Assembly (NCBI RefSeq): GCF_900107435.1
Contig: NZ_FNPZ01000003.1
Coordinates: 124,001 to 188,000 of the forward strand
Length of the DNA stretch: 64,000 bases
DNA from: Herbiconiux ginsengi
Lineage (GTDB): Bacteria; Actinomycetota; Actinomycetes; Actinomycetales; Microbacteriaceae
Direction: 5' to 3'
The translations under genes were made by a program, and so were the position numbers. Each line of letters begins with the position of its first letter. The first letter of the stretch is position 1. A model generated the notes under the pieces. The model saw nothing but the letters and a program-made list of their open reading frames with translations. It searched no databases and was not told where the DNA came from. This document shows positions 2,389 to 16,823 of the stretch, piece by piece.

Positions 2389-2616
2389 TCATGGGCAGAC
2401 GCGGGCGCTGCGCCCGTCGAATCCGACGATGTCGCCGAGCTGGAGCTGTCGTCCGCGACGTCGATCGACCTCGCCGTTCACGCTCACGAGGCCGTCGACG
2501 ATGGCCTCTTTCCCCGTTCCACCGCTGTCGAGAAGCCCGGCGAACTTCACGAACTGCCCGAGGCGGATGCTCTCACCGCCGATCGAGACGTCGTCGATCG
2601 CATCCGGGTTCGTCAT
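2389..2616 (-). CDS. S4-domain RNA-binding protein
   Basis: 75 residues that are essentially one S4 domain: an IRLGQFVKFAGLLDSGG helix, then EAIVDGLVSVNGEVDRRRGRQL and a closing strand with QLGDIVGF. This is the YbcJ/YaaA-like stand-alone S4 family, generally RNA-binding with a poorly defined role. A longer start at 2649 is possible; neither start has a strong ribosome site. It is tail-to-tail with the hydrolase and shows no operon link to the fructan genes that follow. Confidence 0.75.
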   Translation of the reverse strand: MTNPDAIDDVSIGGESIRLGQFVKFAGLLDSGGTGKEAIVDGLVSVNGEVDRRRGRQLQLGDIVGFDGRSARVCP

Positions 2617-2731
2617 GCCCGAATGGTAGCCGACATCCGAAGCCGTCATCCGGCGTCCGTTCGCACCGCTGTCGGCGGAAGTAGGTGTTCGCGTCGCGGG
2701 TGTGCCGGAGGACGATGCCGAGCGGGGATGG

Positions 2732-3979
2732 TCACTCGACGGCGAGCTGGGCCGGGCGCGAATCCTCGAGTTCGCGCTGCGGGCCTGTGCCGAATCGCGA
2801 GGTCGCCCCGATGCCGAAGACGGCTGCGCCGGTGAAGACCTCCACGGTCTCCTCGTCGACGAGGATCGTCACGACGCCGGCCGACGCAGGAACGACGGTG
2901 GTCGTGTCCATCCACGTGCACACGACACTCGTCGCGGTTCGGCGAACCCGGAGGGTGCCGGCGTCATTCGTCGTCGTCCATTCCTCGTCGCTGTCGAGCG
3001 TGTGCAGCGTGGGGCGGTGCTCATCCGTTCCGTCCGCGTGCACCGCGAGAGATGCCATGACCGACGGATGAGGTGCCGATACGAGGGTGTCGCCGTCGAG
3101 GCGCAGAACGTGCGGCACGCTCAGCGCGCTGGCACGGCCGGCGACCTCGTCGAGAACGCCGCGCATCCAGAAGATGAGGCACGGCTGCCCCGCTTCATCG
3201 CGGAAGAACGACGGCGCGTAGTAGCTCTCGCCGTAGGTGAGACGCCCCCAATGCTCCGGCTCGAAGCGGCCGTCTCTGAACTCGCCGATCGCGTAGACGA
3301 CGTAGTACAGCTCGTCGTCCTGCCAGACCGACGTCACCATCACGTCGCGCCCGTCGATGGTGAAGATCTGCGGGCACTCCCAGAGCGATCCGGTCCACAC
3401 GGGCTCGGTCTCCCGGGTGTTGCGCGAGGCGGCCAAGCCCTCGTACGACCACGCCGAGAGGTCGCCGGAGACGAACGAGCTCGCCGCGGCTTCTCCGCCG
3501 ACGAGGGCGGTGCCGACGAGCATCCGCCAACGATCGCCGTCACGCACGACGAAGGGGTCGCGGAAGGCCACGGGGTCGAGGGGTGGAGCCTCCACGACCA
3601 CCTCGCCCTTGGCCCAGACCAGCCAGTCGTCGTCGACGGGGGTGGCCGTGCGGATGCTCCCCACGCCGAAATCGGGAACCTGCACCGAGGTGTAGAAGAT
3701 CGTCGGTCGGCCGTCGTCGTCGATCGCCATCGACCCCGACCAGATGCCGCCGTCTCCGTCACCCGGCTCGAGGGCGGGCGGATGCTCCGTCCAGGTGACC
3801 AGATCGGGCGAGGTCGCGTGGCCCCAACGGCAGTCCGGTGCCCAGGTGATGCGGTCGGGAACGAACTGGAAGAAGAGGTGGTACTGACCGTTGTGCCAGG
3901 TCAACGCCAGGGGGTCGTTGATCCAGCCCGATCGCGGGGTGAAATGCAGGCGGGGGCGTGGTCGCTGCGCGTCCGTCAT
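2732..3979 (-). CDS. GH32 beta-fructosidase, cytoplasmic
   Basis: 415 residues, glycoside hydrolase family 32. All three family motifs are visible: WINDP (residues 19-23, Asp22 nucleophile), FRDP (139-142, Asp141 transition-state stabiliser) and WECP (200-203, Glu201 acid/base), followed by a beta-sandwich. There is no signal peptide, so it acts on imported fructosides, releasing fructose from sucrose, inulobiose or short fructo-oligosaccharides. The ATG at 3979 has AGAAGGAG upstream. It is transcribed divergently from the ABC importer operon across one shared promoter/operator region. Exact substrate is inferred from context. Confidence 0.92.
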   Translation of the reverse strand: MTDAQRPRPRLHFTPRSGWINDPLALTWHNGQYHLFFQFVPDRITWAPDCRWGHATSPDLVTWTEHPPALEPGDGDGGIWSGSMAIDDDGRPTIFYTSVQVPDFGVGSIRTATPVDDDWLVWAKGEVVVEAPPLDPVAFRDPFVVRDGDRWRMLVGTALVGGEAAASSFVSGDLSAWSYEGLAASRNTRETEPVWTGSLWECPQIFTIDGRDVMVTSVWQDDELYYVVYAIGEFRDGRFEPEHWGRLTYGESYYAPSFFRDEAGQPCLIFWMRGVLDEVAGRASALSVPHVLRLDGDTLVSAPHPSVMASLAVHADGTDEHRPTLHTLDSDEEWTTTNDAGTLRVRRTATSVVCTWMDTTTVVPASAGVVTILVDEETVEVFTGAAVFGIGATSRFGTGPQRELEDSRPAQLAVE

Positions 3980-4028
3980 GGGGGCGGCTCCTTCTGCGGC
4001 CTCCGTCGGTGGTGGCCGTGCTGTGACA

Positions 4029-4069
4029 ATTATGGAGTTGACAAGACGTTTTGGCAAAACGTATTGTCA
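4029..4069. promoter_or_regulatory. Divergent promoters with twin LacI operators
   Basis: Plus strand: TTGACA at 4038-4043, 17 bases, then a GTATTG/TATTGT -10 near 4061. Minus strand, towards GH32: TTGCCA (4057-4052), exactly 17 bases, CATAAT (4034-4029). Between them lie two CG-centred LacI-type sites, CAAGACGTTTTG (4042-4053) and CAAAACGTATTG (4055-4066), together forming a near-perfect 31-bp palindrome (4039-4069). One regulator, probably the LacI protein at 7347-8408, could silence both directions. Confidence 0.75.
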
Positions 4070-4156
4070 TCACAGTCGCTTCGGGCGACCGACGCCGGAC
4101 CACCCGGCGCGTACCCTCGCAATCACGCACCGCCGCACAGAATTGGAGCCGAAGTA

Positions 4157-5476
4157 ATGATGCTTCGCACACACCGGCACTTGTCCCGACGCGTTCTCGT
4201 CGGAGCCGCAGGAGCCCTTGCCGCACTCACCGCCGTCACCCTCACCGGGTGCGGCGCCGGAGGGGGCACCTCCGCCTCCGGAGACGATTCGATCACCGTG
4301 CTCGTCGAGGCCGGCGGCCACGGGGAGCTGCAGCCGATCGCCGACCAGTTCGAGAAGGACACCGGCACGTCGGTGGAGTTCGTCGAGCTGCCCTACGACG
4401 GTCTCTACAACCGCCTCAACAGCGAGTTCGGCTCGGGCTCGCTGTCGTTCGACGTCGCAGCGCTCGACGCCATCTGGCTGCCGACCTTCGCCGAGGCGCT
4501 CACCCCGCTCGACGACATGTTCACCGACGACGTGAAATCCGATCTCTTCCCGTCGCTGGTCAGCGAGGCACAGGTCGACGGATCGTTCGTCGGCATGCCC
4601 GCCTGGACCAACTCCGAGATCCTCTACTACCGCACCGACCTCTTCGAAGACCCGACGCAGCAGGCGAACTTCAAGGCCCAGTACGGGTACGATCTTGCTC
4701 CGCCCACGACCTGGGAGCAGTACGCCGACATCGCGAAGTTCTTCACGCAGGACACGAACGGAGACGGCCAGGTCGACCTCTACGGCACCGACGTCAAGGG
4801 CGCCGTGGAGACCGAGTGGCTCGCCACCCTGTCGCAGACCGGCGAGACGAACATGGTGGTGGGTGACGACGGCACCGTGTCGCTCGGCGATGCCGACAGC
4901 CTCAAGGCGCTCGACTTCTACACCAGCCTTCTGCCCTACGCGCCGAGCGGCGCCGCGCAGCTGGACTGGGCGGGCTCGCAGAACCTCTTCAACCAGGGTC
5001 AGCTGGCGATGATGCGTTTCTGGGCGCACGCGTACAAGCAGATCCCCGCTGACTCGGCGGTCTCCGGCAACGTGGGCGTCACCACGATGATCGGCGGCCC
5101 GGGCGGAGTCGCCGGAGTCCCCGGCGCGTGGTACCTCTCCGTGCCCTCAGGCACCCCGAAGCAGGAGAAGGCGCTCGAGTTCGTGCAGTACGCCTATGAC
5201 CACAACGATCTGTCGGTCGACACCGACCTGGGTCTGGCGTCACGGATCTCGGTGCTCGAGAAGTACGAGAGCGAGCCGGGCTTCGAGAACTACAAGCCGC
5301 TCGTCGACACCCTGAACGCGGAGGCCACCATCCCGCGGCCGGCCAACCCGAAGTGGCAGGAGATCGTGGACTCGGCGCTCATCCCGATGATCCAGAAGGC
5401 TGTCGTGCCGGGGGCGGACAACCAGAAGCTGCTCGACGACGCCAAGGCGCAAGTCGAAGACATCATCGGCGGCTGA
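4157..5476 (+). CDS. ABC sugar-binding lipoprotein (fructan/DFA locus)
   Basis: 439 residues, extracellular solute-binding protein family 1. The N-terminus has Arg-rich start, hydrophobic core and lipobox LTGC with Cys32, so it is membrane-anchored outside the cell. Context (GH91, GH32, fructokinase-like enzyme, LacI) suggests a fructo-oligosaccharide or difructose dianhydride ligand. The double ATG at 4157/4160 is preceded by GGAGCCGAAG. The same frame is open far upstream, but that part overlaps the GH32 gene and the operator and is not coding. It is followed by a 16-bp perfect hairpin and then the permeases. Confidence 0.9.
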   Translation: MMLRTHRHLSRRVLVGAAGALAALTAVTLTGCGAGGGTSASGDDSITVLVEAGGHGELQPIADQFEKDTGTSVEFVELPYDGLYNRLNSEFGSGSLSFDVAALDAIWLPTFAEALTPLDDMFTDDVKSDLFPSLVSEAQVDGSFVGMPAWTNSEILYYRTDLFEDPTQQANFKAQYGYDLAPPTTWEQYADIAKFFTQDTNGDGQVDLYGTDVKGAVETEWLATLSQTGETNMVVGDDGTVSLGDADSLKALDFYTSLLPYAPSGAAQLDWAGSQNLFNQGQLAMMRFWAHAYKQIPADSAVSGNVGVTTMIGGPGGVAGVPGAWYLSVPSGTPKQEKALEFVQYAYDHNDLSVDTDLGLASRISVLEKYESEPGFENYKPLVDTLNAEATIPRPANPKWQEIVDSALIPMIQKAVVPGADNQKLLDDAKAQVEDIIGG

Positions 5477-5482
5477 CCGCCG

Positions 5483-5520
5483 GCCGGTGGGTTTCCGCCC
5501 GCTCGCGGAAACCCACCGGC
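5483..5520 (+). terminator. Intercistronic hairpin after binding-protein gene
   Basis: Perfect 16-bp arms (5483-5498 and 5505-5520) around a six-base loop, starting seven bases after the binding-protein stop codon. No T-run follows, so it is more likely an mRNA-stabilising or partial-termination element that keeps the binding protein in excess over the permeases than a full terminator. Confidence 0.7.
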
Positions 5521-5554
5521 CTCTCCTGCCCACCACCTCACCGAAAGTCTCATC

Positions 5555-6448
5555 GTGCGTCTCACCGACCGCCGGTTCGCCTTCTTCTTGATGCTGCCGG
5601 CCACCCTCTTCCTCGCCGTGTTCGTGGCGTGGCCCCTGGTGCAGTTCATCTCGGACTCGTTCTTCGAGATCAGCAAGTTCGCCGGCGGCCCGCGCACCTT
5701 CGTGGGCCTCGACAATTACATCGAGGCCTTCACCTCCGGCGATTTCGGCAATGCCGCGTGGCGCACGCTCGTGTACACGGTCATCGTGGTCGTCTTCGAA
5801 TTCGTGCTCGGTCTCACGGTCGCGTTGATCTTCACGGCCCTCGGCAACAGCTCCCGGGTGTTCCGCACGATCTTCCTCTACCCCCTGATGATCGCCCCGA
5901 TCGTGGCCGGACTGCTCTGGCGGTTCCTGCTGATCGACAACTTCGGCATCGTCAACCAGCTGCTCACCGACGCCCACATCCTGCAAGACCCGGGTCAGAT
6001 CCAGTGGCTCAGCGACCCGAACATCGCCCTGTTCTCGGTGGCCATCCCCGACATCTGGCTGACCACTTCGTTCATCTCGCTCATCCTCTTCGCCGGCCTG
6101 CAGAACATCCCCGGCGACGTCATCGAGGCGGCCCGGCTCGACGGCGCCCGCTACCCGACCATCCTGTTCCGCATCATCATCCCGCTGCTCCGGCCCGTGA
6201 TCGCGGTCGCCCTCATCCTCCGCGGCATCGACGCCGCGAGGGCCTTCGACGTCATCCTCATCCAGACCAACGGCGGACCGCAGCAGAGCACGGAGACCAT
6301 GTCGCTGCTCGTCTACCGCACCATGGTGCGCTTCGGCGACCCCGGCCTGGCGAGCGCCATGGGCACCATCTACCTGATCGCGATGCTCGCGGTGTCGGTC
6401 GCCGCCATCCTGCTCATCTGGCGACCCGGAAGTGAGAACGATCGATGA
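5555..6448 (+). CDS. ABC sugar permease, MalF type
   Basis: 297 residues with six predicted membrane helices and the cytoplasmic EAA loop IEAARLDGARYPTILF that docks on the ATPase. GTG start at 5555 with a weak GAAAG site. Its stop overlaps the next permease start (ATGA at 6445-6448). It forms the membrane channel with the following gene. No ATPase gene is present in the cluster, as is usual for actinobacterial CUT1 importers that share a housekeeping MsiK-type ATPase encoded elsewhere. Confidence 0.9.
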   Translation: MRLTDRRFAFFLMLPATLFLAVFVAWPLVQFISDSFFEISKFAGGPRTFVGLDNYIEAFTSGDFGNAAWRTLVYTVIVVVFEFVLGLTVALIFTALGNSSRVFRTIFLYPLMIAPIVAGLLWRFLLIDNFGIVNQLLTDAHILQDPGQIQWLSDPNIALFSVAIPDIWLTTSFISLILFAGLQNIPGDVIEAARLDGARYPTILFRIIIPLLRPVIAVALILRGIDAARAFDVILIQTNGGPQQSTETMSLLVYRTMVRFGDPGLASAMGTIYLIAMLAVSVAAILLIWRPGSENDR

Positions 6449-7284
6449 ACGGCCTCGAAACCACCCGGATCAGTTCCCGCGTCATCCTCTGGATCGCGCT
6501 GGTTCTTCTCGTCGTGCTCTACGGCTTCCCGTTCCTCTACATGCTCTTCACCTCGTTCAAGACGCCGCTGGAGACCATCGCGGTGCCGCCGACGGTTCTT
6601 CCGTCGACCTGGACCGTCGAGAACTACGCGACGGCGATCGGCCGCGACGGTGTGGTGGCCTCGTTCATCAACAGCATCGTCACGGCGGTGCTCAGCACGC
6701 TCATCTCGCTCGTGCTGGCGGTGCCCGCGGCCTATGGCGTGACACGGTTCCGCACCAAGTTCGGACAGTTCTTCATCGTCGGCGCCCTCGTGATGCGGAT
6801 GGTGCCGCCGATCGTCATCGGCGTTCCGATGATCGCGATCTTCCGCAACCTCGGCATCTCCGACACCTCGTTCGCGCTGGCCATCGCGCACGCCACCATC
6901 TCGCTGCCGTTGTCGATCTGGCTCATGTCGAGCTTCTTCGAGGCGGTGCCCGAAGAGCTCGAAGAGGCGGCGAAGATCGACGGCGCGAGCCGGCTCGGTG
7001 CGCTCTGGCGCGTCGTGCTCCCGGTGACCGCGGGCGGAGTGGCGGTCACGGCGATCTTCGCCTTCCTCGCCTCCTGGAACGAGTTCCTCTTCGCCCTCCT
7101 CCTCACGGCCACGAGGTCGCAGACCACCCCGATCGTCATCGCGAACTTCCAGACCCAGTTCGGCCTCGACTGGGGAGCGATGACCGCTCTGGCGGTGCTC
7201 TATTCGGTTCCCGTCATCCTTCTCGCCCTTGTGCTGCAGCGTCACATCGTCGCCGGACTCACCGCCGGTGCGGTCAAAGGCTGA
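6445..7284 (+). CDS. ABC sugar permease, MalG type
   Basis: 279 residues, six helices, EAA loop EEAAKIDGASRLGALWRVVLP near residue 175. Second half of the importer channel with the gene at 5555. ATGA overlap upstream gives translational coupling; 62 bases separate it from the LacI gene. Confidence 0.9.
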   Translation: MNGLETTRISSRVILWIALVLLVVLYGFPFLYMLFTSFKTPLETIAVPPTVLPSTWTVENYATAIGRDGVVASFINSIVTAVLSTLISLVLAVPAAYGVTRFRTKFGQFFIVGALVMRMVPPIVIGVPMIAIFRNLGISDTSFALAIAHATISLPLSIWLMSSFFEAVPEELEEAAKIDGASRLGALWRVVLPVTAGGVAVTAIFAFLASWNEFLFALLLTATRSQTTPIVIANFQTQFGLDWGAMTALAVLYSVPVILLALVLQRHIVAGLTAGAVKG

Positions 7285-7312
7285 CGGGCTCGACGAGAAT
7301 GGTCGCCAACCA

Positions 7313-7322
7313 GGTTCGAACC
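7313..7322. promoter_or_regulatory. Small CG-centred palindrome before lacI
   Basis: Perfect 10-bp palindrome GGTTCGAACC in the 62-base gap before the LacI gene. It is centred on CG as LacI-family sites are, but it does not match the operator pair at 4042-4066. An autoregulatory site is possible; chance is not excluded. Confidence 0.25.
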
Positions 7323-7346
7323 GAACGCACGCAGAGGACGAGAGCA

Positions 7347-8408
7347 ATGGCACGCAACACAGTGGGCATCCGGGACGTCGCTCGTGAAGCCGGGGTCTCG
7401 GTCACCACCGTCTCCCACATCCTCAACGACGTCGAATCGGCGAGGGCGAGCGACGAGACGCGCGAACGGGTGCGGGCCACGGCGCAGCGGCTCGGCTACG
7501 GGGCCAACCGCATCGCGAGGAGTCTCCGGCGGCAGCAGTCCGAGATGATCGGTCTGCTGAGCGAGGAGATCGCCACCACACCGCACGCGGGTCGCATCAT
7601 CCTCGGCGCCCAGCAGGCGGCGCGGGAGCGAGGCTTGACGCTGGTCTTGATCAACACCACGCGCGACGCGCTCGACATCCAGCGCGACACGGATGCGCTG
7701 CTCCGCCAGCAGGTCGACGGCGTTCTCTACGCCACCATGTATCACCGCGAGATCGCGCTCCCGGAGTCCCTCCGGGCCGTGCCGACGGTGCTGATCGACT
7801 CGACGTCGGAGGACGGACGCGTGCCCTCGGTCGTGCCCGACGAGGAGGGCGGGGCGTACGTCGCAGTCGACGAACTCATCCGGCACGGACACCGACGCAT
7901 CGGCTTCATCACCAACTCCGACGACGTGCCCGCCACCCGAGGGCGGCTGGCGGGGTACCGCAAGGCGCTCGCCGACGCCGGACTGGACTTCGATCCGACC
8001 CTCGTCGTCGCCGAGCCCTCCGAGACTCCGGGCGGCTACAAGGCCGCGGTCGAGGTGCTCGGGCGGCCCGATCGGCCGACGGGCCTGTTCTGCTACAACG
8101 ACCGGATGGCGATGGGCGCCTACCGCGCGGCGGCCGAACTCGGTCTCCGCATTCCCGACGACCTCTCCCTCGTCGGCTTCGACAACCAGGAGCTCATCGC
8201 CGAGGGCCTCTATCCCGCCCTCACGACCGTGGCGCTCCCGCACTTCGAAATGGGGGAGTGGGCGCTCGGCGCCCTCACCACGCTGATGGAGGCCGGAGAC
8301 GATTCCGATCAGGAGACCGTCTACGAGGTGGCCGTGCTGCCCTGCCCGCTCGTGCGGCGGCAGTCGGTCGCGGCACCGGCGCGCTCGAAGGAGAGCGTCG
8401 ATGAGTGA
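7347..8408 (+). CDS. LacI-family regulator of the GH91 fructan locus
   Basis: 353 residues: N-terminal helix-turn-helix (GIRDVAREAGVSVTTVSHIL, residues 6-25), hinge with RIARSLRR, then a periplasmic-binding-protein-like sensor domain. ATG 7347 has GAGGACGAGAG before it. The stop overlaps the kinase start by eight bases. It shares long stretches of sensor-domain pattern with the LacI of the second locus (both keep ATTP-AG-II-GAQ and GVFCHND/GLFCYND), so the two probably descend from one gene and sense related fructosides. Likely binds the twin sites at 4042-4066. Confidence 0.9.
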   Translation: MARNTVGIRDVAREAGVSVTTVSHILNDVESARASDETRERVRATAQRLGYGANRIARSLRRQQSEMIGLLSEEIATTPHAGRIILGAQQAARERGLTLVLINTTRDALDIQRDTDALLRQQVDGVLYATMYHREIALPESLRAVPTVLIDSTSEDGRVPSVVPDEEGGAYVAVDELIRHGHRRIGFITNSDDVPATRGRLAGYRKALADAGLDFDPTLVVAEPSETPGGYKAAVEVLGRPDRPTGLFCYNDRMAMGAYRAAAELGLRIPDDLSLVGFDNQELIAEGLYPALTTVALPHFEMGEWALGALTTLMEAGDDSDQETVYEVAVLPCPLVRRQSVAAPARSKESVDE

Positions 8409-9333
8409 GCTGCTCGTCATCGGTGAGGCGCTCGTCGACGTGGTGTCGACCGCGGACGGTCGCGAGGCCCACGCCGGCGGAAGCCCCATGAACGTCGCGG
8501 TCGGTCTGGCCCGGTTGGGGGCATCCGTGACCCTGGCGACACGGATCGGCACCGACGAGAACGGGCGTCTTCTCTCGGATCATCTCGCTCGCTCGGGCGT
8601 GGAGCTGACGCGCGGGTCGGTCGATCCCGCCTTCCGCACCTCGTCGGCGACGGCGACCATCCAATCCGACGGATCGGCGCGGTACGACTTCGACATCACC
8701 TGGGACATCGCCGCTCCTCCGGTCGCCGGGTTCGGGGCGATCCATTCGGGGTCGATCGGGGCCCTGCTGTCGCCGGGAGGCGAGGTCGTCGCGGCCTGTT
8801 TCGAGGCCGCCGGGCCCGGCGTCCTCCGCTCGTTCGACCCGAACATCCGCCCGTCGGTGCTGGGACCGCGGGAGACCGTGCTCCCCGCCGTCGAGCGTCT
8901 CGCGCGCCGGAGCACCGTCATCAAGCTGAGCGACGAGGATGCGGCCTGGCTGCACCCGGGGCTCGATGCGGCCGAGGCGACGGCGCACTACGCGCGACTC
9001 GGGGCCACGATCGTGATCGTCACCCAGGGTGCATCCGGGAGCCTTCTCCGGCTCGGCGCGGAGACGGCGTTCGTCCCGGCCGTGACCACCGAGGTGGCCG
9101 ACACCATCGGGGCCGGCGACTCCTACATGGCGGGGCTGCTCTACTTCCTCACCACGACGGTCGGCATCGATCCGGTCGTGAGCGGGTCGGCTTCGTTGGC
9201 CGAGGCTGTGGACGCGGCCTCGTTCGCGGCGGCCTGCGCGGCCGTCACGGTGAGCCGGCCGGGCGCCGACCTGCCGCGGCTCGACGAGGTCGCCTCTCTC
9301 TCAACACTCCGTTCCGAAAGCGAGACCCCATGA
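8401..9333 (+). CDS. PfkB-family carbohydrate kinase (fructokinase-like)
   Basis: 310 residues, ribokinase/PfkB fold: N-terminal GEALVDVV and substrate-side AGGSPMNVAVGLARLGASV, C-terminal GAGDSYMAGL with the catalytic Asp of the GAGD anion hole. Located between LacI and GH91 with overlaps on both sides, it most likely phosphorylates the fructose set free by the GH91/GH32 enzymes. Fructokinase is inferred from context. Confidence 0.88.
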   Translation: MSELLVIGEALVDVVSTADGREAHAGGSPMNVAVGLARLGASVTLATRIGTDENGRLLSDHLARSGVELTRGSVDPAFRTSSATATIQSDGSARYDFDITWDIAAPPVAGFGAIHSGSIGALLSPGGEVVAACFEAAGPGVLRSFDPNIRPSVLGPRETVLPAVERLARRSTVIKLSDEDAAWLHPGLDAAEATAHYARLGATIVIVTQGASGSLLRLGAETAFVPAVTTEVADTIGAGDSYMAGLLYFLTTTVGIDPVVSGSASLAEAVDAASFAAACAAVTVSRPGADLPRLDEVASLSTLRSESETP

Positions 9334-10679
9334 GCGCCGCCAACCGGTATGACGTGACCGAGTGGCCCGTCGGAGACCCGTTCGACGACGTCGGCGAGGT
9401 GATGATGAGCATCCTCGCCGACATCAAGCGACGACAGTCCGCCACCGACGAGAACGACGGCGGCAAGCCGGGCGCCGTCATTTACATCCCGCCGGGGGAC
9501 TTCCGTCTGCGCACCCAGGTCGTGATCGACGCCAGCTTCCTCCGGATCGAAGGCTCCGGTCACGGATTCACCTCGTCGAGCATCCGTTTCAACGTGCCCG
9601 AAGACGAGTGGCCCGATCTGCACGAACTCTGGCCGGGCGGCAGCCGAATCCTCGTCGACATCCCTCCGGAGAGGCGCGCGCAGCGATCCGACGGCGCCGC
9701 CTTCCTCGTCGAACGGCAGGGGAGTCCGCGGATCAGCTCGGTGGAGTTCTCGAACTTCTGCATCGACGGTCTGCACTTCACCGCCGACGGCTCCGACCGG
9801 CATCCGGAGAACACCTACGCGAACGGGAAGACCGGCATCCACGTCGCCGGCGCCAACGATTCGTTCCGGGTGAACGGCATGGGGTTCGTCTACCTCGAGC
9901 ACGCTCTCACCATCCACAACGCGGATGCGCTGTCGATCCACGACAACTTCGTCGCCGAGTGCGGGAGCTGCATCGAGCTGCGCGGGTGGGGTCAGGCGTC
10001 GAAGATCACCGACAACCTCATCGGAGCCGGCCCGAGCGGCTACTCGATCTACGCCGAGAACCACGGCGGCCTCCTCGTCACGGCGAACAACGTCTTTCCG
10101 CGCGGTGCGAGCAGCGTGTACTTCAGCGGCGTCACGCGCTCGAGCATCACGGCCAATCGGTTGCACTCCTTCTACCCGGGCATGGTCGTTCTCGACGCCG
10201 ACAGCTCCGAGAACCTCGTGGCCTCCAACCATCTGCTGCGCGACCACGAGCCCTGGACCCCGTTCCTCGGAGTCGACAACGGTCTCGACGACGGCTACGG
10301 ACTGGTGCGGATCAGCGGCAACGGCAACTCCGTCATCGGCAACCACATCTCCGAGGTCGTCGACTCCCGGAGCCTCCGGTCTGCCGGCACCCCGCCGACG
10401 ATCATCAGACTGGTGGCGGGCACGGGCAACTACGTGGCGACCAACCATGTCGTGGCGAGCGACGTGAGCGCGTCGTCGAGCGGCTCCGCGTTCGAGGCCC
10501 AGGTCGACGCCCTGCTGAGCACGGCGGTGTCGAACTCCCTCGACGTGCTGACCGTCGTGGCCGACCCGGAATCGACGGGCAACACGATCCTCGACTCGGG
10601 GACCGAGGCCCAGATCGTCGCCGATCGGCGCGCCAACGCGGTGAGGGCCACCCCCACGATCGGCGCCCCCAGCGCCTGA
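9330..10679 (+). CDS. GH91 enzyme: inulin fructotransferase / DFA hydrolase
   Basis: 449 residues matching the right-handed beta-helix family GH91. Seen: YDVTEWPV start, IPPGDFRLRTQVVID, NGMGFVYLEHAL, the IHDNFVAECGSCIEL stretch and AENHGGLLVTANNVFPRG. Asp205 and Glu216 are eleven residues apart, the spacing of the catalytic Asp/Glu pair in this family. Secreted inulin fructotransferases carry a signal peptide; this protein has none and is encoded behind an importer and kinase. An intracellular difructose-dianhydride hydrolase (DFA-IIIase-like) is therefore the better reading. ATGA overlap with the kinase. Which DFA (I or III) cannot be told. Confidence 0.88.
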   Translation: MSAANRYDVTEWPVGDPFDDVGEVMMSILADIKRRQSATDENDGGKPGAVIYIPPGDFRLRTQVVIDASFLRIEGSGHGFTSSSIRFNVPEDEWPDLHELWPGGSRILVDIPPERRAQRSDGAAFLVERQGSPRISSVEFSNFCIDGLHFTADGSDRHPENTYANGKTGIHVAGANDSFRVNGMGFVYLEHALTIHNADALSIHDNFVAECGSCIELRGWGQASKITDNLIGAGPSGYSIYAENHGGLLVTANNVFPRGASSVYFSGVTRSSITANRLHSFYPGMVVLDADSSENLVASNHLLRDHEPWTPFLGVDNGLDDGYGLVRISGNGNSVIGNHISEVVDSRSLRSAGTPPTIIRLVAGTGNYVATNHVVASDVSASSSGSAFEAQVDALLSTAVSNSLDVLTVVADPESTGNTILDSGTEAQIVADRRANAVRATPTIGAPSA

Positions 10680-10690
10680 CGGAGTCGCCG

Positions 10691-10927
10691 GCCGAGCGGA
10701 TGGTCGCGGTCGGCCTCAGACGGATGCCCGGCGCCCGAGTGGATGGCCGCGGTCGGCCTCAGACGGATGTCCGGGGGTCCGACGGTCGAGTGACGGTCGC
10801 GGTCGCCCTCAGGCGGATGTCCAGGGGCCTGACGGCCGAGCGGGCGGTCGCGGTCGGCCTGACGGACGCCCGGGGCCAGACGGCCGAGTGACGGCCGCGG
10901 TTCGCCTCAGACGGATGCCCGCGGAAC
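10691..10927. repeat. Five imperfect tandem repeats, about 45-50 bp each
   Basis: Units begin near 10691, 10735, 10784, 10834 and 10882 and share gccgagcgg / gtcgcggtcggcctcag / acggatgcccggg blocks with drift in between. They fill the gap between the converging GH91 and LacI genes; the last unit runs into the LacI reading frame and supplies its stop codon (10907-10909). No spacers of constant length separate the repeats, so this is not a CRISPR array. Confidence 0.7.
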
Positions 10928-11938
10928 CGGCGGGCAGGAGATCGCGAGCGGCGCTCCCGTCGGGGCCTCTTGCAGTCCGAGGAGCACCCGCACCCCCGCT
11001 GCGCCGAGTTCGTAGTGGGGGAGCGCGACCGTCGACAGCGGCGGCCGAAGGTGAGCGGCGATGACCTCCTGGTTGTCGAAGCCCACGACCGCGATGTCGT
11101 TCGGGATGGTCAGGCCGAGTTCGCGCAGGCCGTCGTAGAGACCCATCGCCACCCGGTCGTTGTGACAGAAGACGCCGGTCACGCCGAGGTCGCGGATGCG
11201 GCCGGCGACGGCGTATCCGCCCTCCTGTTCGGGCGCGGCATCCAACACCAGAGTGGGGTCGAAGGCGATACCGGCACCCTGCAAGGCGTCGCGGTAGCCG
11301 GCCAGACGGCCTGATCGCGCGGGCGACGGGGTGGTGGTGTTCACGAACGCGATGCGGGTGTGGCCCGCGTTCAGCAGCAACCGGGTGGCCACGTTTCCCC
11401 CTTCCCGCTCGTCGGGCACGACCGCGGGGGCGGGCGTCGCGGTGTCGAAGCAGTCGACGAGCACGTACTCGGTCTCGTGCAGCGCCGGCGGAGCGGTGAC
11501 GGCGCGGTGGTACCACGTGGAGTAGAGGATGCCCCGCACTTTGTGCTCGAGCATCATCGAGATGGCGGCCTCCTCCGCGGCGAGATCGCCCTCGGTGTTG
11601 GCGACGAGCAGCACATAGCCGTGCTTCCAGGCCTCGTCCTGGGCGCCGTGGATGATCTGACCGGCGAACGGGGTGGTGGCGATCGCGTCGGCGACGAGGC
11701 CGATGAAGTTCGAGCTCCCGCTGGAGAGCGTCTTCGCGAGAGCGTTCGGACGGAATCCCAGCTCCTTGACGGCGTCGAGCACGCGCTGCCGTGCCTCGGG
11801 CCCGATCCTCGCCCCCTTCTTGTCGTTGACCACGTACGACACGGTCGCGATCGACACTCCGGCCGCCTCGGCCACCTGGCGCATCGTGATGGGCTGGCCC
11901 GCCCGGTCGGCGCTCATCGGTTCACTCGTTTCGGACAC
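10907..11938 (-). CDS. LacI-family regulator of second fructan locus
   Basis: 343 residues with helix-turn-helix TMRQVAEAAGVSIATVSYVV (residues 18-37) and a PBP-like sensor. Last gene of a minus-strand operon; seven bases separate it from the permease stop. The probable targets are the paired TNAANCGNTTNA sites at 16706-16759. Its 3' end lies in the tandem repeat array, so the last few residues (about PPVPRASV) may have been reshaped by the repeat. Confidence 0.9.
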   Translation of the reverse strand: MSETSEPMSADRAGQPITMRQVAEAAGVSIATVSYVVNDKKGARIGPEARQRVLDAVKELGFRPNALAKTLSSGSSNFIGLVADAIATTPFAGQIIHGAQDEAWKHGYVLLVANTEGDLAAEEAAISMMLEHKVRGILYSTWYHRAVTAPPALHETEYVLVDCFDTATPAPAVVPDEREGGNVATRLLLNAGHTRIAFVNTTTPSPARSGRLAGYRDALQGAGIAFDPTLVLDAAPEQEGGYAVAGRIRDLGVTGVFCHNDRVAMGLYDGLRELGLTIPNDIAVVGFDNQEVIAAHLRPPLSTVALPHYELGAAGVRVLLGLQEAPTGAPLAISCPPVPRASV

Positions 11939-11945
11939 GTGACGA

Positions 11946-12842
11946 TCATCCCTTAGTCGCGCCGCTCGCGAGGCTGTAGGTCATGGCTTTGTTCAAGACC
12001 AGGAACACCAGGAGCAACGGGGTGATGCTCACGCACACCGCGGCGAAGGTCGCGGTCCAGTCGACCTTGCCCATCGCGCCGATGTAGTTCTGCAGCCCGA
12101 GCGGGATCGTCTTGAGGTCGTCGGTCAGCACGAAGGTGTTGGCGAAGATGAAGTCGTTCCAGATGAAGATGCTGTTGACCATCGCCACCGTCACCATCGT
12201 GTTCACCGACAACGGCAGGGTGATCTGCCCGAAGATGCGGTAGGGCCCCGCGCCGTCGAGTGACGCCGCCTCGTAGATCTCGCCGGGGATGTACTCGTAG
12301 AACGACGAGAAGAGGTAGATCGACGTCGGAAGCGCGAACCCGGCGAGCGGGATGATGATCGACTGGTACGTGTCGAGCAGGTTGACCGCGGCGTAGTCGA
12401 CGAAGAGCGGCACCAGGGCCACCTGCACCGGCACGATGATGCCGATGAGGAACAGCGCCCGCACGAACTTGCTGAAGCGGAAGCCCAGCACCTGCAGGGC
12501 ATAGGCCCCCATCATCCCGAGGAAGACGATCACCACGATCGCGCCGACCGTGACGATGAGGGAGTTCAGGATGTTGAGGCCCAGGTTCCCCGTGGCGAAG
12601 GCTCGCGTGTAGTTGTCGAAGGTGATCTCGGTGGGGAGGGCGAAGGGATTGCCTCCGGCGAAGTCCTGCTCGGTGCGCACGCTCGTGATGAAGAGCCACG
12701 CGAGGGGGTAGACCTGCACGATGACGATCAGCGCGACGATGACGCCGGTGAGCTTGCGCTGCAGATGCAACTGTCGGCGGCGCGGCCGCGGCAGGCTCTC
12801 CTGCTCGGAGGGGCGGATGGGGCGGGTCGCCGTGAGCGTCAT
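11946..12842 (-). CDS. ABC sugar permease, MalG type
   Basis: 298 residues with a 30-residue charged N-terminus, six helices and EAA loop YEAASLDGAGPYRIFGQITL. Its start overlaps the stop of the preceding permease by four bases. Forms the channel with the gene at 12839-13720. Confidence 0.9.
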   Translation of the reverse strand: MTLTATRPIRPSEQESLPRPRRRQLHLQRKLTGVIVALIVIVQVYPLAWLFITSVRTEQDFAGGNPFALPTEITFDNYTRAFATGNLGLNILNSLIVTVGAIVVIVFLGMMGAYALQVLGFRFSKFVRALFLIGIIVPVQVALVPLFVDYAAVNLLDTYQSIIIPLAGFALPTSIYLFSSFYEYIPGEIYEAASLDGAGPYRIFGQITLPLSVNTMVTVAMVNSIFIWNDFIFANTFVLTDDLKTIPLGLQNYIGAMGKVDWTATFAAVCVSITPLLLVFLVLNKAMTYSLASGATKG

Positions 12843-13720
12843 GCGTCGGCCTTACGTCGGAGGAGCAGGAAGATGAGGCCGACCGCGACGAGGCACTCCA
12901 CCACCACGAAGACCGAGATCGTGCTCGCGTAGCCGTAGTTCGTGCTCGTGAACGCCGTCTTGTACATGTAGGTCGTGAGGAGCTCGGACGACTGGCCGGG
13001 GCCGCCGTTGGTGAGGAGGTAGGGGATGTCGAACCCGCGGAGGGCGTTCGTGGTGGCGATGATGGTCGTCGTGATCCACACGGGGCGGATGTAGGGGAAC
13101 CGGATGCGCCAGAACGTCTGCCACCACGACGCCCCGTCGAGCTTCGCCGCCTCCTCGAGCTCGGCCGGCACGGCGAGCAGAGCGGCGTAGATGATGAGCA
13201 TGTAGAGCCCGGTGAAGCGCCATCCCTCCGGCACGGAGACGGCGGCCAGCACCGTGCCGACGTCGGAGAGCCAGGCGTTCTGCAGGTTGCCGAGGCCGAT
13301 GAACTCCAGCACCTGGTTGATGAGTCCCTCGGGGTCGAGGGAGTAGATGCGCTGGAACAGGAACGCGATCGCCACGGTGGAGATCACCGCAGGCAGGATG
13401 TAGAGCGTCTTGACGACTTCGCGTCCCCGGCGGAGCAGGGTGAGCAGGCTCGCCACGATCAGCGCCCCTCCGAGCTGGAGAACCAGGCAGATCACCACGT
13501 AGCCGAGGGTGTTGCGGAACGCGATCCAGAACACGGTGTCACCCGTGAACATCCGGATGTAGTTCTCGAACCCCACGAAGAGCATCGGGCTGATGCCGTC
13601 CCAGTCGAAGAAGCTGAGGAACAGCGACTGGAAGATGGGCAGCAGCACGGCGATGCCGTACAGGGCGAGCGGCGGTAGCAGGAAGACCAGCACGGAGAGG
13701 CGTGACCGCTGGGGAAGCAT
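12839..13720 (-). CDS. ABC sugar permease, MalF type
   Basis: 293 residues, six helices, EAA loop EEAAKLDGASWWQTFWRIRF. The partner permease follows with an ATGA overlap and the binding-protein gene precedes it, separated by 58 bases that hold a 9-bp hairpin. No ATPase gene in the operon; a shared ATPase elsewhere is assumed. Confidence 0.9.
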   Translation of the reverse strand: MLPQRSRLSVLVFLLPPLALYGIAVLLPIFQSLFLSFFDWDGISPMLFVGFENYIRMFTGDTVFWIAFRNTLGYVVICLVLQLGGALIVASLLTLLRRGREVVKTLYILPAVISTVAIAFLFQRIYSLDPEGLINQVLEFIGLGNLQNAWLSDVGTVLAAVSVPEGWRFTGLYMLIIYAALLAVPAELEEAAKLDGASWWQTFWRIRFPYIRPVWITTTIIATTNALRGFDIPYLLTNGGPGQSSELLTTYMYKTAFTSTNYGYASTISVFVVVECLVAVGLIFLLLRRKADA

Positions 13721-13734
13721 CGGCGTCCCCTTCC

Positions 13735-13756
13735 TGTGGGGCCCGGAGGCCCCACA
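13735..13756 (-). terminator. Intercistronic hairpin after binding-protein gene
   Basis: Perfect arms TGTGGGGCC / GGCCCCACA (13735-13743, 13748-13756) with loop CGGA, between the binding-protein stop and the permease start. Same position as the hairpins at 5483 and 55130; no T-run. Confidence 0.65.
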
Positions 13757-13778
13757 TCAGGCGTGGATGGGTGGGCGG

Positions 13779-15128
13779 TTACTGGAAGGCTTTCGGCCCG
13801 TTGTCGGCGATCACGCCGTCCATGGTGCTGATGAACTCGTCGGGGTCGACCTCGCCCTGCAGCAACAGGGTGAGTTCCTGCTGGAGACGGGTGTTCGAGG
13901 TCGGGTCGAGCTGGGTGTCCCACGGCATCGCCGTCTTCTCGCCGACGTCGTTGGCCTGGTCGACCGCGCGCTGATAGAGAGGAGTGGCGTTGTCTGGGAT
14001 GGTGGTCTGCACGTTCGTGGTGGGGGAGAGCGCGCCGGTGGCCGCGTACACCTCGGGGTAGCGCTTGAGGGCGAAGGAGAGGAAGTCGCGCACCAGCGGG
14101 TCGTAGGTCTTCGCGTTCACGGCCATGCCGATGCCCGACGGCGAGACGTACTCGTTGGCGGCCGTCACCGAGTCGGCGGTGACCGGAAGCGTGAAGTAGT
14201 CGATGTCGTCGCGCACCGAGGGGTCGAGTGCGTCGGTGGCGAGGCTGTTCAGCTCCCAGGTGCCGATGTTGTACACGGCGGCCTTGCCCGAGGTGAAGGA
14301 GGCCTGGGCGTCGGAGTATCCGGTCGACGAGAAGCCGTCTTGGAAGCATCCGGCCGATCCGAGGTCGCTCAGCCACTGCACGGCCTGCTCACCGGTCGCG
14401 TCGCTGAGCTTCGCGTCGCCCTTCTTGAGCTGCTGCACGTAGTCGGGACCCGCGGTGCGGAAGGGGTAGTAGGCCATGTACCGCTCGAGCGGCCACTGGT
14501 CTTGGCCGTCGAGTGCGATGGGGGTGATGCCGGCAGCGCGGAGCTTCGTGCACATCGCGGGGAAGTCGTCGAGGGTCTTCGGCACCTCGACCCCGGCCTG
14601 CTCGAACAGGGCCTTGTTGTACCAGAAGAACTCCAGCTGGAACTCGAACGGCACCATGTAGAGGGAGCCGTCGTCGAACCGCTGGTAGTTCAGAGCGGCC
14701 GGCCGGTAGTCGTCGTAGACGCCGAGATCTTTCAGCAACGCCTCGGCGTCCATCATCGTGCCTTGCGAGGCGAGCTTCTGGGCGAACGGGGTCGCATCCG
14801 TGTCGAACAGTTCGGGCAGCTTGTTCGCGGCGGCCAGAGTCTCGTACTTCTGGATGTACGACGGTCGGTCGGGCGTGGTGATCAGGTTGAGGGCGAAGCC
14901 GGGGTGGTCTTTCGCGTACTCGTCGGCGATCTGCTCCATCGCGGTGATCACGCCGCCGTCGGACGGCCGGGAGAGCAGCCAGGAGATCTCGCGGGGAACG
15001 ATCTCGCCTTCAGGGCTCACATCGGTCGGGTCGCTGCTGCCGGAGCTGCCACCGGAGCAGCCGCTGAGCAGCAATCCGATGGTGGCCACCGTGGCTGCGA
15101 GGGCGAGTCGTGTGCGGGTCTTGTTCAT
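13779..15128 (-). CDS. ABC sugar-binding lipoprotein (second fructan locus)
   Basis: 449 residues, solute-binding protein family 1. Signal sequence with lipobox LLSGC (Cys24) and a Gly/Ser-rich tether. ATG 15128 is preferred over the in-frame ATGs at 15137 and 15143 because GGAG lies nine bases upstream. It captures the sugar for the permeases that follow; the neighbouring GH32 enzyme suggests a short fructo-oligosaccharide. Confidence 0.9.
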   Translation of the reverse strand: MNKTRTRLALAATVATIGLLLSGCSGGSSGSSDPTDVSPEGEIVPREISWLLSRPSDGGVITAMEQIADEYAKDHPGFALNLITTPDRPSYIQKYETLAAANKLPELFDTDATPFAQKLASQGTMMDAEALLKDLGVYDDYRPAALNYQRFDDGSLYMVPFEFQLEFFWYNKALFEQAGVEVPKTLDDFPAMCTKLRAAGITPIALDGQDQWPLERYMAYYPFRTAGPDYVQQLKKGDAKLSDATGEQAVQWLSDLGSAGCFQDGFSSTGYSDAQASFTSGKAAVYNIGTWELNSLATDALDPSVRDDIDYFTLPVTADSVTAANEYVSPSGIGMAVNAKTYDPLVRDFLSFALKRYPEVYAATGALSPTTNVQTTIPDNATPLYQRAVDQANDVGEKTAMPWDTQLDPTSNTRLQQELTLLLQGEVDPDEFISTMDGVIADNGPKAFQ

Positions 15129-15190
15129 GTGTTCCATCTCCATTGATCGAAGGGTAGGTGAGGATTGGTGCTGGTGGCGAAGCGTGAAGG

Positions 15191-16687
15191 TCAGGCGTAC
15201 TGCCGGTCGGAACGGGTCATCGCGGAATCCGCGTCGGAGGCGGGGGATCGGTCGGGCCGCGCCGACACCTCGAAGTGGTGCGCGGTCACCGATCCCTCGC
15301 CGACGAACACGCCGATGCGGCCGCCGGTGTGGTCGTAGATCCGGGTGCTGAGGGTGGTGCGGTCGTCGAGGTTCACGACGCACAGGTCGTTCTCCACGAT
15401 CACGTCGAGCCGGTGCCGGCCGGGCGCGAGATCGCACGGGCGCTCCAGCTCGATGAGGAACGGCACGTCGCCGGAGATCTCCCACTGCCCGTCGCCCGTG
15501 CGCCGCCGGGGCCAGCGATCGAAGACCATCCGGTTGCGCTTGGGTTCGAGACGCACGATGTAGGAGGCATCGCCGTCGCCGCTGGAGCGGAGGAGAAGGC
15601 CGCATTCCGTGGTTCCGTGCTCGATGTCGAGCGTGACCGAGGCGCGGAAGGCGGCCGGTGTTTCCTGGTCGGAGAGCAGCGCGGTGTAGCCGTCCGGGGC
15701 GGCGAGCACGAGGGGGTCGCCGCTCGGGCGGCCGGCAAAGGTGGTGGTCACGGCCTCACTGAAGCTCTCTCGCGTTTCGGCGGCGAAGCCGAAGGCGAGC
15801 GTGCCGTCCGCGTTCTGTCGTGCTTCGAGCACCGACAGGGTGCCGGCCCACTGCCAGGCCCCGTCGTCGCGGGAATCCTCCTTGCTCGCGATCCAGCCGA
15901 AGAAGAAGCGGCGGCCGTTCAGCTCGGCGGTCTTCGAGGCGTAGAAGGCGCGGCCGTCGATGCTGTCGAACTCGGGAACCTGCCACGGGCCGTCGAGGGA
16001 GCGGGCCATCCGATAGCGCGTCGTGAAGCCTTCGGAGAACTCCGAGTAGACGAGGTACCACCAGTCGCCCCACTGGAACACCTCGGGGCATTCGTGAGCG
16101 ATGTAGCGGCGAGGATCCCAGAACGGCTCCACGGGCTCCCACGTGACGAGGTCGGTCGAGATGCACTGGGCGATCACGCCGCGCCGCCGCTCGGGGCCGT
16201 CGGTGTGCCGGGCGGCGATGAGCATCCGCCAGACTCCGGCGGCCTCGTCGCGGAACACGAAGGGATCGCGCCAGTCGGCGGATTCGTAGCCGGCGGATGC
16301 GCCGAAGGTGTGCTCCGGATGCCGGGTCCAGCTGGTCATCCCGTCTGAACTGGTGGCGTGCATCACCAGCTGCAGCGGAAGTCCGTCGGAGCCCAGGTGG
16401 CGCGGGTTCTGGCCGGTGTAGAAGAGGTGGAAGGTGTTCCCCTGCTGCACGATGCTTCCGGTGTAGACGTTGAAGTCGGGATCGTCGGTCGTGCCGTGTT
16501 CGAAGGCGAGCCCTTCGTCGTCGAAGTGGACGAGATCGCGCGTGGTGACGAGGTGCCACGGGGTGCCCGGCTTCGGGTCGGACCGCTCTTCGTAGAGGTA
16601 GAAGAGCGCGAGGTCGCCGTCGTGCTGGAAGGGGATGATGTCTCCCACCCACGCGCCGCGCGGCTGGAAGAAAGTGTGATCGGGCAT
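15191..16687 (-). CDS. Atypical GH32 fructosidase (Aec43-like subfamily)
   Basis: 498 residues. GH32 five-blade propeller in which the usual WMNDP start is WVGD (residues 13-16, Asp16 as nucleophile), with DWRDPF (138-143, Asp141) and AHECPE (197-202, Glu199) intact, then a C-terminal beta-sandwich from about residue 330. WVGD, the RRYIAHECP block and WWYLVYSEFSE are the marks of the E. coli Aec43-like subfamily associated with short-chain fructo-oligosaccharides. There is no signal peptide, so it acts on imported sugar. First gene of a five-gene operon; AAAGGA before the ATG. Confidence 0.88.
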   Translation of the reverse strand: MPDHTFFQPRGAWVGDIIPFQHDGDLALFYLYEERSDPKPGTPWHLVTTRDLVHFDDEGLAFEHGTTDDPDFNVYTGSIVQQGNTFHLFYTGQNPRHLGSDGLPLQLVMHATSSDGMTSWTRHPEHTFGASAGYESADWRDPFVFRDEAAGVWRMLIAARHTDGPERRRGVIAQCISTDLVTWEPVEPFWDPRRYIAHECPEVFQWGDWWYLVYSEFSEGFTTRYRMARSLDGPWQVPEFDSIDGRAFYASKTAELNGRRFFFGWIASKEDSRDDGAWQWAGTLSVLEARQNADGTLAFGFAAETRESFSEAVTTTFAGRPSGDPLVLAAPDGYTALLSDQETPAAFRASVTLDIEHGTTECGLLLRSSGDGDASYIVRLEPKRNRMVFDRWPRRRTGDGQWEISGDVPFLIELERPCDLAPGRHRLDVIVENDLCVVNLDDRTTLSTRIYDHTGGRIGVFVGEGSVTAHHFEVSARPDRSPASDADSAMTRSDRQYA

Positions 16688-16705
16688 CGTCGTCGAGTCC
16701 TTTGG

Positions 16706-16759
16706 TTAAACGCTTGATCATGACCATAAGGGATGAAATTGAGATGATCAAGCGGTTAA
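16706..16759 (-). promoter_or_regulatory. Promoter bracketed by two LacI operators
   Basis: TTAAACGCTTGA (16706-16717) and TCAAGCGGTTAA (16748-16759) both fit TNAANCGNTTNA, and their centres are 42 bp (four helical turns) apart. Between them, on the minus strand, TTGATC is followed by 17 bases and TATGGT, a plausible -35/-10. A LacI dimer pair could loop and close the promoter of the second fructan operon. Confidence 0.65.
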
Positions 16760-16823
16760 GCAATTTAAGCGTCCGGCTGGCTCGTCGCCTGGCGAACGGC
16801 CGATCTCCGTCAGACTGGCTTCT

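Follow-up and report, generated by a model that had tools for sequence, protein, structure and literature searches.

A probable self-regulated unit for uptake and cleavage of difructose dianhydride III in Herbiconiux ginsengi

A predicted DFA III uptake-and-cleavage unit

Within a 64,000-nucleotide stretch of the Herbiconiux ginsengi genome (hereafter ‘the window’, to whose positions all coordinates refer), a group of adjacent genes most probably forms a dedicated, self-regulated unit for the uptake and cleavage of the cyclic fructose disaccharide difructose dianhydride (DFA) III, a reading to which we assign a probability of roughly 0.86. Gene calls and Pfam matches reveal six plus-strand genes in positions 4157-10679, encoding the solute-binding protein (SBP, a lipoprotein) and two permeases of an ATP-binding cassette (ABC) importer, a LacI-family regulator, a PfkB-family kinase, and a member of glycoside hydrolase family 91 (GH91). 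A gene for a GH32 enzyme is transcribed divergently from this series. An initial annotation of the stretch had listed the same six genes, all of which were recovered on the plus strand, and had proposed that imported DFA is hydrolysed in the cytosol and then passed through GH32 cleavage to phosphorylation. This route gains support from the placement of the lid-bearing GH91 protein in the clade of DFA-III hydrolases (DFA-IIIases), from the co-occurrence of importer and hydrolase, and from an operator shared by both transcription directions.

In the pathway that we favour, inulin fructotransferases (IFTases) of other organisms would release DFA III outside the cell, where the lipoprotein would bind it; the two permeases would then import the sugar with energy from a shared ATPase of the MsmK type, whose gene lies elsewhere in the genome. 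The cytosolic, lid-bearing GH91 enzyme would open DFA III to yield inulobiose, and the GH32 enzyme, expressed from the divergent promoter, would split inulobiose into two fructoses and so draw the reversible GH91 step forward. PfkB would phosphorylate the fructose for entry into glycolysis, and LacI, acting on a single operator, would silence both promoters until it is released by one of the pathway sugars. Among the DFAs, the most likely substrate is DFA III, and nothing points to DFA I.

The GH91 protein as a DFA-III hydrolase

By its sequence, the GH91 protein encoded at 9330-10679 (plus strand) is a DFA-IIIase. Its closest solved relatives are the DFA-IIIase entries of Arthrobacter chlorophenolicus, which match over the full length at 774-775 bits with an E-value (3e-232) that excludes a chance match, whereas three fructotransferases score 276-368 bits. 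Aligned identity amounts to 76.8% with AcDFA-IIIase, compared with 49.5% and 50.1% for the IFTases 2inu and 9j4i. Among family models, the Pfam Beta_helix_2 domain of inulin fructotransferase is matched at 36.5 bits (cut-off 30). No NCBIfam model matched the protein at E-values up to 0.001, and a PADLOC run on the GH91 and GH32 proteins gave no result.

The feature that tells a hydrolase from a fructotransferase in this family is the lid rather than the catalytic Asp/Glu pair. The initial annotation had pointed to the Asp/Glu spacing of IFTases; the pair is indeed present (D199 and E210, 11 residues apart), but it occurs in all 130 rows of our GH91 alignment and therefore does not discriminate. 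This alignment comprises 91 DFA-IIIase-type rows and 39 others, including both solved IFTases, and its rows are partly redundant: the window protein appears twice (its own copy is L003) and some genes are present under two locus identifiers. In AaDFA IIIase, the equivalent residues D207 and E218 are indispensable and match D233 and E244 of the Bacillus enzyme BsIFTase (PMC4640833). The lid of the window protein spans 27 residues (378-404, encoded at 10461-10541 on the plus strand). A lid of 26-27 residues is found in each of the 91 DFA-IIIase-type rows, versus 0-2 residues at this position in all 39 others; the latter include two uninformative rows (L009 and L060) that break off or go out of frame ahead of the lid position. 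PMC11538131, with reference to Yu et al. 2018, states that AcDFA-IIIase becomes an IFTase when its lid is deleted.

An IFTase is recognized by a secretion signal and the absence of a lid; the window protein has a lid and no evident signal. It begins with MSAANRYDVTEW, its start codon overlaps the PfkB stop codon, and its N-terminus is not hydrophobic by inspection, in agreement with the signal-less enzyme of the initial annotation. AaDFA IIIase also is without a signal peptide according to SignalP (PMC4640833). A crude hydrophobicity score for signal peptides was set aside: values of at least 2.0 were reached by none of 103 DFA-IIIase-type and 7 of 42 other GH91 open reading frames (ORFs), counts in which a gene with two locus identifiers is entered twice, and the two groups were not separated. 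The seven are not the twin-arginine proteins. The division between twin-arginine IFTases and signal-less GH91 proteins was made by eye, and proteins with doubtful starts (L023, L054, L073/L096/L105 and others) were assigned by their position in the tree.

A tree of 50 GH91 rows (L063 is not among them) resolves three groups. The first unites the DFA-IIIases with the window protein (support 100/100), in the second, the two solved IFTases fall together with the twin-arginine IFTases (100/100), and the third holds proteins that are both signal-less and lid-less (77/96). The order in which the groups join is unsure, since the first and second are connected through long branches. Replacement of the GH91 gene within the operon had been hinted at because the SBP and permeases of the window are 86-97% alike to those of Herbiconiux, Agreia and Frigoribacterium relatives, compared with 75-78% for GH91. 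A GH91 tree still keeps these rows and L006 on the same side of a branch (63/94, not starred), and no gene swap is claimed.

Other GH91 arrangements were encountered among the relatives. Members of the third group are about 405 amino acids long, with no evident signal and no lid (L071:4939-6153, L018, L048, L058, L102 and others), and their genes adjoin those of the DFA-III importer in divergent orientation, at the place where other genomes have a twin-arginine IFTase. An Agrobacterium plasmid (L117:9001-11663) carries two tandem GH91 genes behind an importer and a UgpC-type ATPase, and a Subtercola locus (L007) has two tandem signal-less GH91 genes across from the SBP gene.

Linkage of importer and hydrolase

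The genes of the unit were sought within 9.5 kb, on either strand, at 80 named DFA-IIIase loci. These are the best 80 of 156 relatives, and represent the closest relatives of the window rather than a random sample. The SBP and both permeases are present at 77 of the 80; the other three (L005, L028 and L057) lie on contigs of 4.5-7.3 kb and were kept in all denominators of 80. LacI and GH32 are each found at 75 loci, and the importer together with GH32 at 73.

We also surveyed 398 genomes of the family, including that of the window, with an SBP cut-off of E up to 1e-100. The SBP was found in all 19 genomes with a DFA-IIIase, versus 2 of the 379 others (Fisher p 1.6e-30, without correction for relatedness). 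Genomes with a lid-less GH91 (G506 and G478) were not counted as DFA-IIIase genomes, and one whose GH91 match is a fragment (G484, E 3e-4) was left out of the GH91 genomes. One of the 2 SBP genomes outside the DFA-IIIase set is G478 (locus L185), in which importer, LacI, GH32 and PfkB genes occur together with a third-group GH91 and no DFA-IIIase was found; the other is G463.

More distant loci extend this association. Homologous importers reside beside DFA-IIIase genes in Bacillales, where the SBP is 35-43% identical, and on both rhizobial plasmids inspected, with a gene for a UgpC-type ATPase as part of the set. Loci on 5 of 85 plasmid records were inspected, and in these five plasmids the hydrolase keeps near some transporter, the type of which varies. 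In place of the ABC importer, a mannose-type phosphotransferase system lies near the DFA-IIIase gene in Latilactobacillus, and a major facilitator superfamily (MFS) transporter adjoins it in Citrobacter and Rahnella (plasmid loci L116, L119 and L120).

A shared operator and a local LacI

A divergent pair of sigma70-like promoters, recognized by consensus match only, occupies positions 4029-4067 on both strands. The plus-strand promoter consists of TTGACA at 4038 and TATTGT ending at 4067, and the minus-strand promoter of TTGCCA at 4057 and CATAAT ending at 4029. A promoter scan of positions 2600-17000 returned 2 hits, compared with a mean of 0.8 (standard deviation 0.8) in shuffled sequences. 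The palindrome ACGTTTTGGCAAAACGT, a LacI-type operator at 4046-4062, overlaps both promoters. Its mean count in shuffles is 0.01, and it is the only such site, allowing up to two mismatches, in the 4.85 Mb genome.

When up to four mismatches are allowed, the operator recurs no more than 260 bp upstream of the SBP gene at 72 of the 77 named loci (70 with up to three). As a control, matches were obtained in 17 of 1540 random 260-bp segments of the same loci, some of which possibly hold true sites. The five loci that lack the operator are four from Bacillales and one from Terrabacter; four of these five are without this LacI at the cut-off used, and the fifth (L082) has a LacI of 26% identity. 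The Terrabacter LacI is nearer to the LacI of the unit that neighbours ours in the window. The operator is mostly present wherever relatives carry this LacI.

The LacI gene itself lies within the unit (7299-8408, plus strand; Pfam LacI and Peripla_BP_3), with an uncertain start at 7299 or 7347. LacI probably regulates its own unit, and the simplest reading is a local regulator with a one-site regulon, for which both operator binding and the inducer are predictions.

Importer, GH32 enzyme and kinase

The SBP gene (4157-5476, plus strand) encodes a lipoprotein with a lipobox (LTGC, Cys32) and a Pfam SBP_bac_1 match of 102 bits, and its ligand is most likely DFA III, given its genomic partners. 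Permease 1 (5555-6448) and permease 2 (6445-7284), both on the plus strand and both matching Pfam BPD_transp_1, overlap by 4 bp. According to Pfam, there is no ATPase gene within the operon. Two MalK/MsmK-type ATPases above the Pfam cut-off, and a third match below it, are encoded elsewhere in the genome, and no relative of the permeases or SBPs of this or the neighbouring unit was found within about 6 kb of either ATPase (tblastn, best E 0.18). An SBP and two permeases with no local ATPase, and a MalK-type ATPase elsewhere, is the pattern of a shared MsmK-type ATPase, which we predict to power the importer.

Between the SBP and permease 1 genes, a hairpin with a perfect 17-bp stem (5482-5521, plus strand) is probably an mRNA-stability or stoichiometry element. 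The 91-nt stretch that contains it folds with -44.2 kcal/mol (z -4.54), and none of 200 shuffled sequences was equally stable. The description of the series as an overlapping operon in the initial annotation holds in part: overlaps of 4, 8 and 4 bp occur at three of the five junctions, but a 78-bp gap separates SBP from permease 1 and a gap of about 14 bp separates permease 2 from LacI if the latter starts at the ATG at 7299.

The GH32 gene (2732-3979, minus strand) encodes a beta-fructofuranosidase of 415 amino acids with a Pfam Glyco_hydro_32N match of 188 bits, the motifs WINDP, FRDP and WECP, and a 140-bit match to the Thermotoga maritima beta-fructosidase; this enzyme would split inulobiose to fructose. 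As previously annotated, it lies opposite the series and is without an evident signal, and its start has now been corrected. The ORF caller placed the start at a TTG at 4057 (2732-4057), but this codon sits in the promoter; translation probably begins at the ATG at 3979. The PfkB kinase (8401-9333, plus strand; Pfam PfkB 135 bits) is a probable fructokinase, judging from its best NCBIfam model, which is that of fructokinase (121 bits, under the model's cut-off of 450).

Source of the DFA III

The genome holds one GH91 protein (all 14 of 14 candidates were scored) and three GH32-domain proteins, none of which starts with an evident signal by inspection. From these two families, the organism thus seems to have no means of producing DFA III or of degrading extracellular inulin. 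The proposal in the initial annotation that DFA is made outside by other organisms fits a genome with no second GH91 and no evidently signalled GH32, and it is from these absences that we infer the origin of the sugar.

A second GH91 scoring at least 300 bits is present in 33 of 80 DFA-IIIase genomes and in none of the other 47, with fragments in G828, G798 and G804 not counted. The latter number gives a rough consumer-only figure, because several genomes are drafts or metagenome-assembled and the 80 are the closest relatives of the window. In two cases (G798:C5:41814-41972 and G804:C33:43273-43434), short N-terminal GH91 fragments lie a few kilobases from the DFA-IIIase gene; these are possibly remnants of a lost IFTase.

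We see an even chance that H. ginsengi is a pure scavenger, which makes no DFA III, secretes no GH91 or GH32 fructanase, and yet retains an importer and a hydrolase dedicated to this sugar under a one-operator regulon, and that such consumer-only lineages are common. Under a scavenging lifestyle, DFA III would be a semi-private product of inulin-degrading neighbours.

Weighing the assignment

Several points weigh against a dedicated DFA-III unit. The case is built from protein families, lid, catalytic residues, signal absence, operator, linkage and co-occurrence, all of which are read from nucleotide and protein sequences. In sequence searches, the nearest solved relatives of the SBP are remote sugar or polyol binders that indicate no ligand, and the shared ATPase is assigned because a local one is lacking. 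PfkB is found at only 46 of the 80 loci at the cut-off used, and is therefore not an essential part of the unit. Absences in the family survey are not absolute, because at most four first-look candidates per genome were scored, and in one family genome (G463) the SBP is of 48% identity and no GH91 was found. Some operator matches in relatives may have arisen by chance: that at L084 has four mismatches and no LacI was found there, and that at L040 is not a clean palindrome. Finally, the GH91 reaction is reversible with an equilibrium that favours DFA III (59:41 in Blautia), and Blautia hansenii has a DFA-III cluster yet could not utilize DFA-III; the authors note its inability to metabolize fructose (PMC11538131).

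The absence of a characterized close relative of the SBP among solved structures leaves room for an importer that mainly serves inulobiose or short inulin-type fructo-oligosaccharides (FOS), with GH91 in an accessory trimming or isomerizing role and DFA III as one substrate among several. GF3, GF4 and inulin are further substrates of the Blautia DFA-IIIase, which turns them into DFA-III and inulobiose (PMC11538131), as such an arrangement would allow. We nonetheless judge this unlikely, since each of the 19 genomes with a lid-bearing DFA-IIIase also has the importer; a constant DFA-IIIase is not expected with FOS uptake, which would need only GH32.

The reversibility of the reaction and its equilibrium toward DFA III (PMC11538131) also would permit GH91 to run in reverse, converting imported inulobiose to DFA III as a store, osmolyte or exported product. 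This seems highly improbable: the operator region is shared with a GH32 gene whose product would remove inulobiose, no exporter is seen among the genes of the unit, and three Blautia strains with homologues utilize DFA III (PMC11538131). That GH91 is an extracellular IFTase acting on inulin is scarcely credible, as the family and catalytic pair common to IFTases are outweighed by the lid, the absence of a signal peptide, 76.8% identity to a DFA-IIIase versus about 50% to two IFTases, and the separate clade formed by the twin-arginine IFTases of relatives. A dedicated DFA-III unit is the reading that we retain.

Neighbouring genes

A second unit, convergent with the first, occupies 10907-16687 on the minus strand and encodes a LacI, two permeases, an SBP and a signal-less GH32. 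This GH32 resembles the solved entries 6r3r/8a9y (134 bits), which we take to be the Bacteroides endo-levanase BT1760, and the substrate of the second unit is possibly another fructan oligosaccharide. The set of SBP, two permeases and LacI surrounds the corresponding GH32 gene in 10 of 11 fetched relatives (the eleventh is a cut contig), and a further GH32 lies beyond LacI in 8 of those 10. The second-unit GH32 is present at a score of at least 490 bits in 35 of the 398 family genomes, 5 of which have a DFA-IIIase.

The stretch between the two convergent operons (10678-10933) holds a G+C-rich unit of 65 nt in four degenerate direct copies, which show 60-75% similarity to the reference copy. 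The outer flanks carry an AraC-type regulator gene divergent from that of an alpha/beta hydrolase (373-2269) and an MFS transporter gene (16824-18065), none with a clear link to fructans.

Implications and comparison with known systems

If the SBP binds DFA III, the unit would supply a defined import system for this cyclic disaccharide of fructose, which is discussed as a potential prebiotic in PMC11538131. The operator and the division between producers and consumers make DFA III cross-feeding testable in Actinobacteria. The findings also bear on database naming, in that 24 of 30 listed plasmid relatives (85 records in all) are annotated only as NosD domain-containing proteins.

Searches of the open-licence PMC literature found no paper on a DFA-III importer of Actinobacteria, on a DFA solute-binding protein, or on inulin fructotransferase with Microbacteriaceae. 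The statement in the initial annotation that dedicated DFA importer loci are rarely described is partly right, but the Blautia clusters (PMC11538131) and a proposal for Bifidobacterium dentium (PMC8605356) have been published. The B. dentium locus for DFA I resembles the window unit in its neighbouring ABC transporter, GH32, signal-less enzymes and proposed import, but its enzyme belongs to an unrelated family (GH172) and acts on DFA I rather than DFA III.

The intracellular route of GH91 and GH32 in Arthrobacter dates to work from 1975-1997 cited in PMC11538131. Arthrobacter aurescens SK8.001 shares with the window a close DFA-IIIase, the conversion of DFA III to inulobiose and fructose, and proposed assimilation by the cell (PMC4640833, which cites Arthrobacter sp. 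H65-7 and A. ureafaciens for the same intracellular DFA-IIIase pathway). Unlike the window genome, A. aurescens SK8.001 makes DFA III from inulin by its own IFTase, and the main text of that paper mentions no transporter.

The closest parallel in gene content is provided by the DFA-III clusters of gut Blautia (B. parvula, B. hansenii, B. hydrogenotrophica and B. wexlerae JCM 35486), for which ABC import followed by GH91 and GH32 is proposed to convert DFA-III to inulobiose and then fructose (PMC11538131). A GH91 DFA-IIIase, GH32 and ABC transporter occur together in both systems, with a sugar kinase in two of the Blautia species. Three Blautia strains with the cluster grow on DFA-III, and the Blautia system is backed by growth tests and one recombinant DFA-IIIase, whereas the window unit is known from genome data; the importer is proposed in PMC11538131, the passages of which describe no importer test. 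The window unit differs in its phylum and in possessing a LacI gene and a defined operator, and the main text of the Blautia paper, figures aside, mentions neither LacI nor another regulator. The pathway and its gene kit have been published before; as far as the open-licence literature reaches, what is new is the operator, the counts of co-occurrence and a genome of the consumer-only kind.

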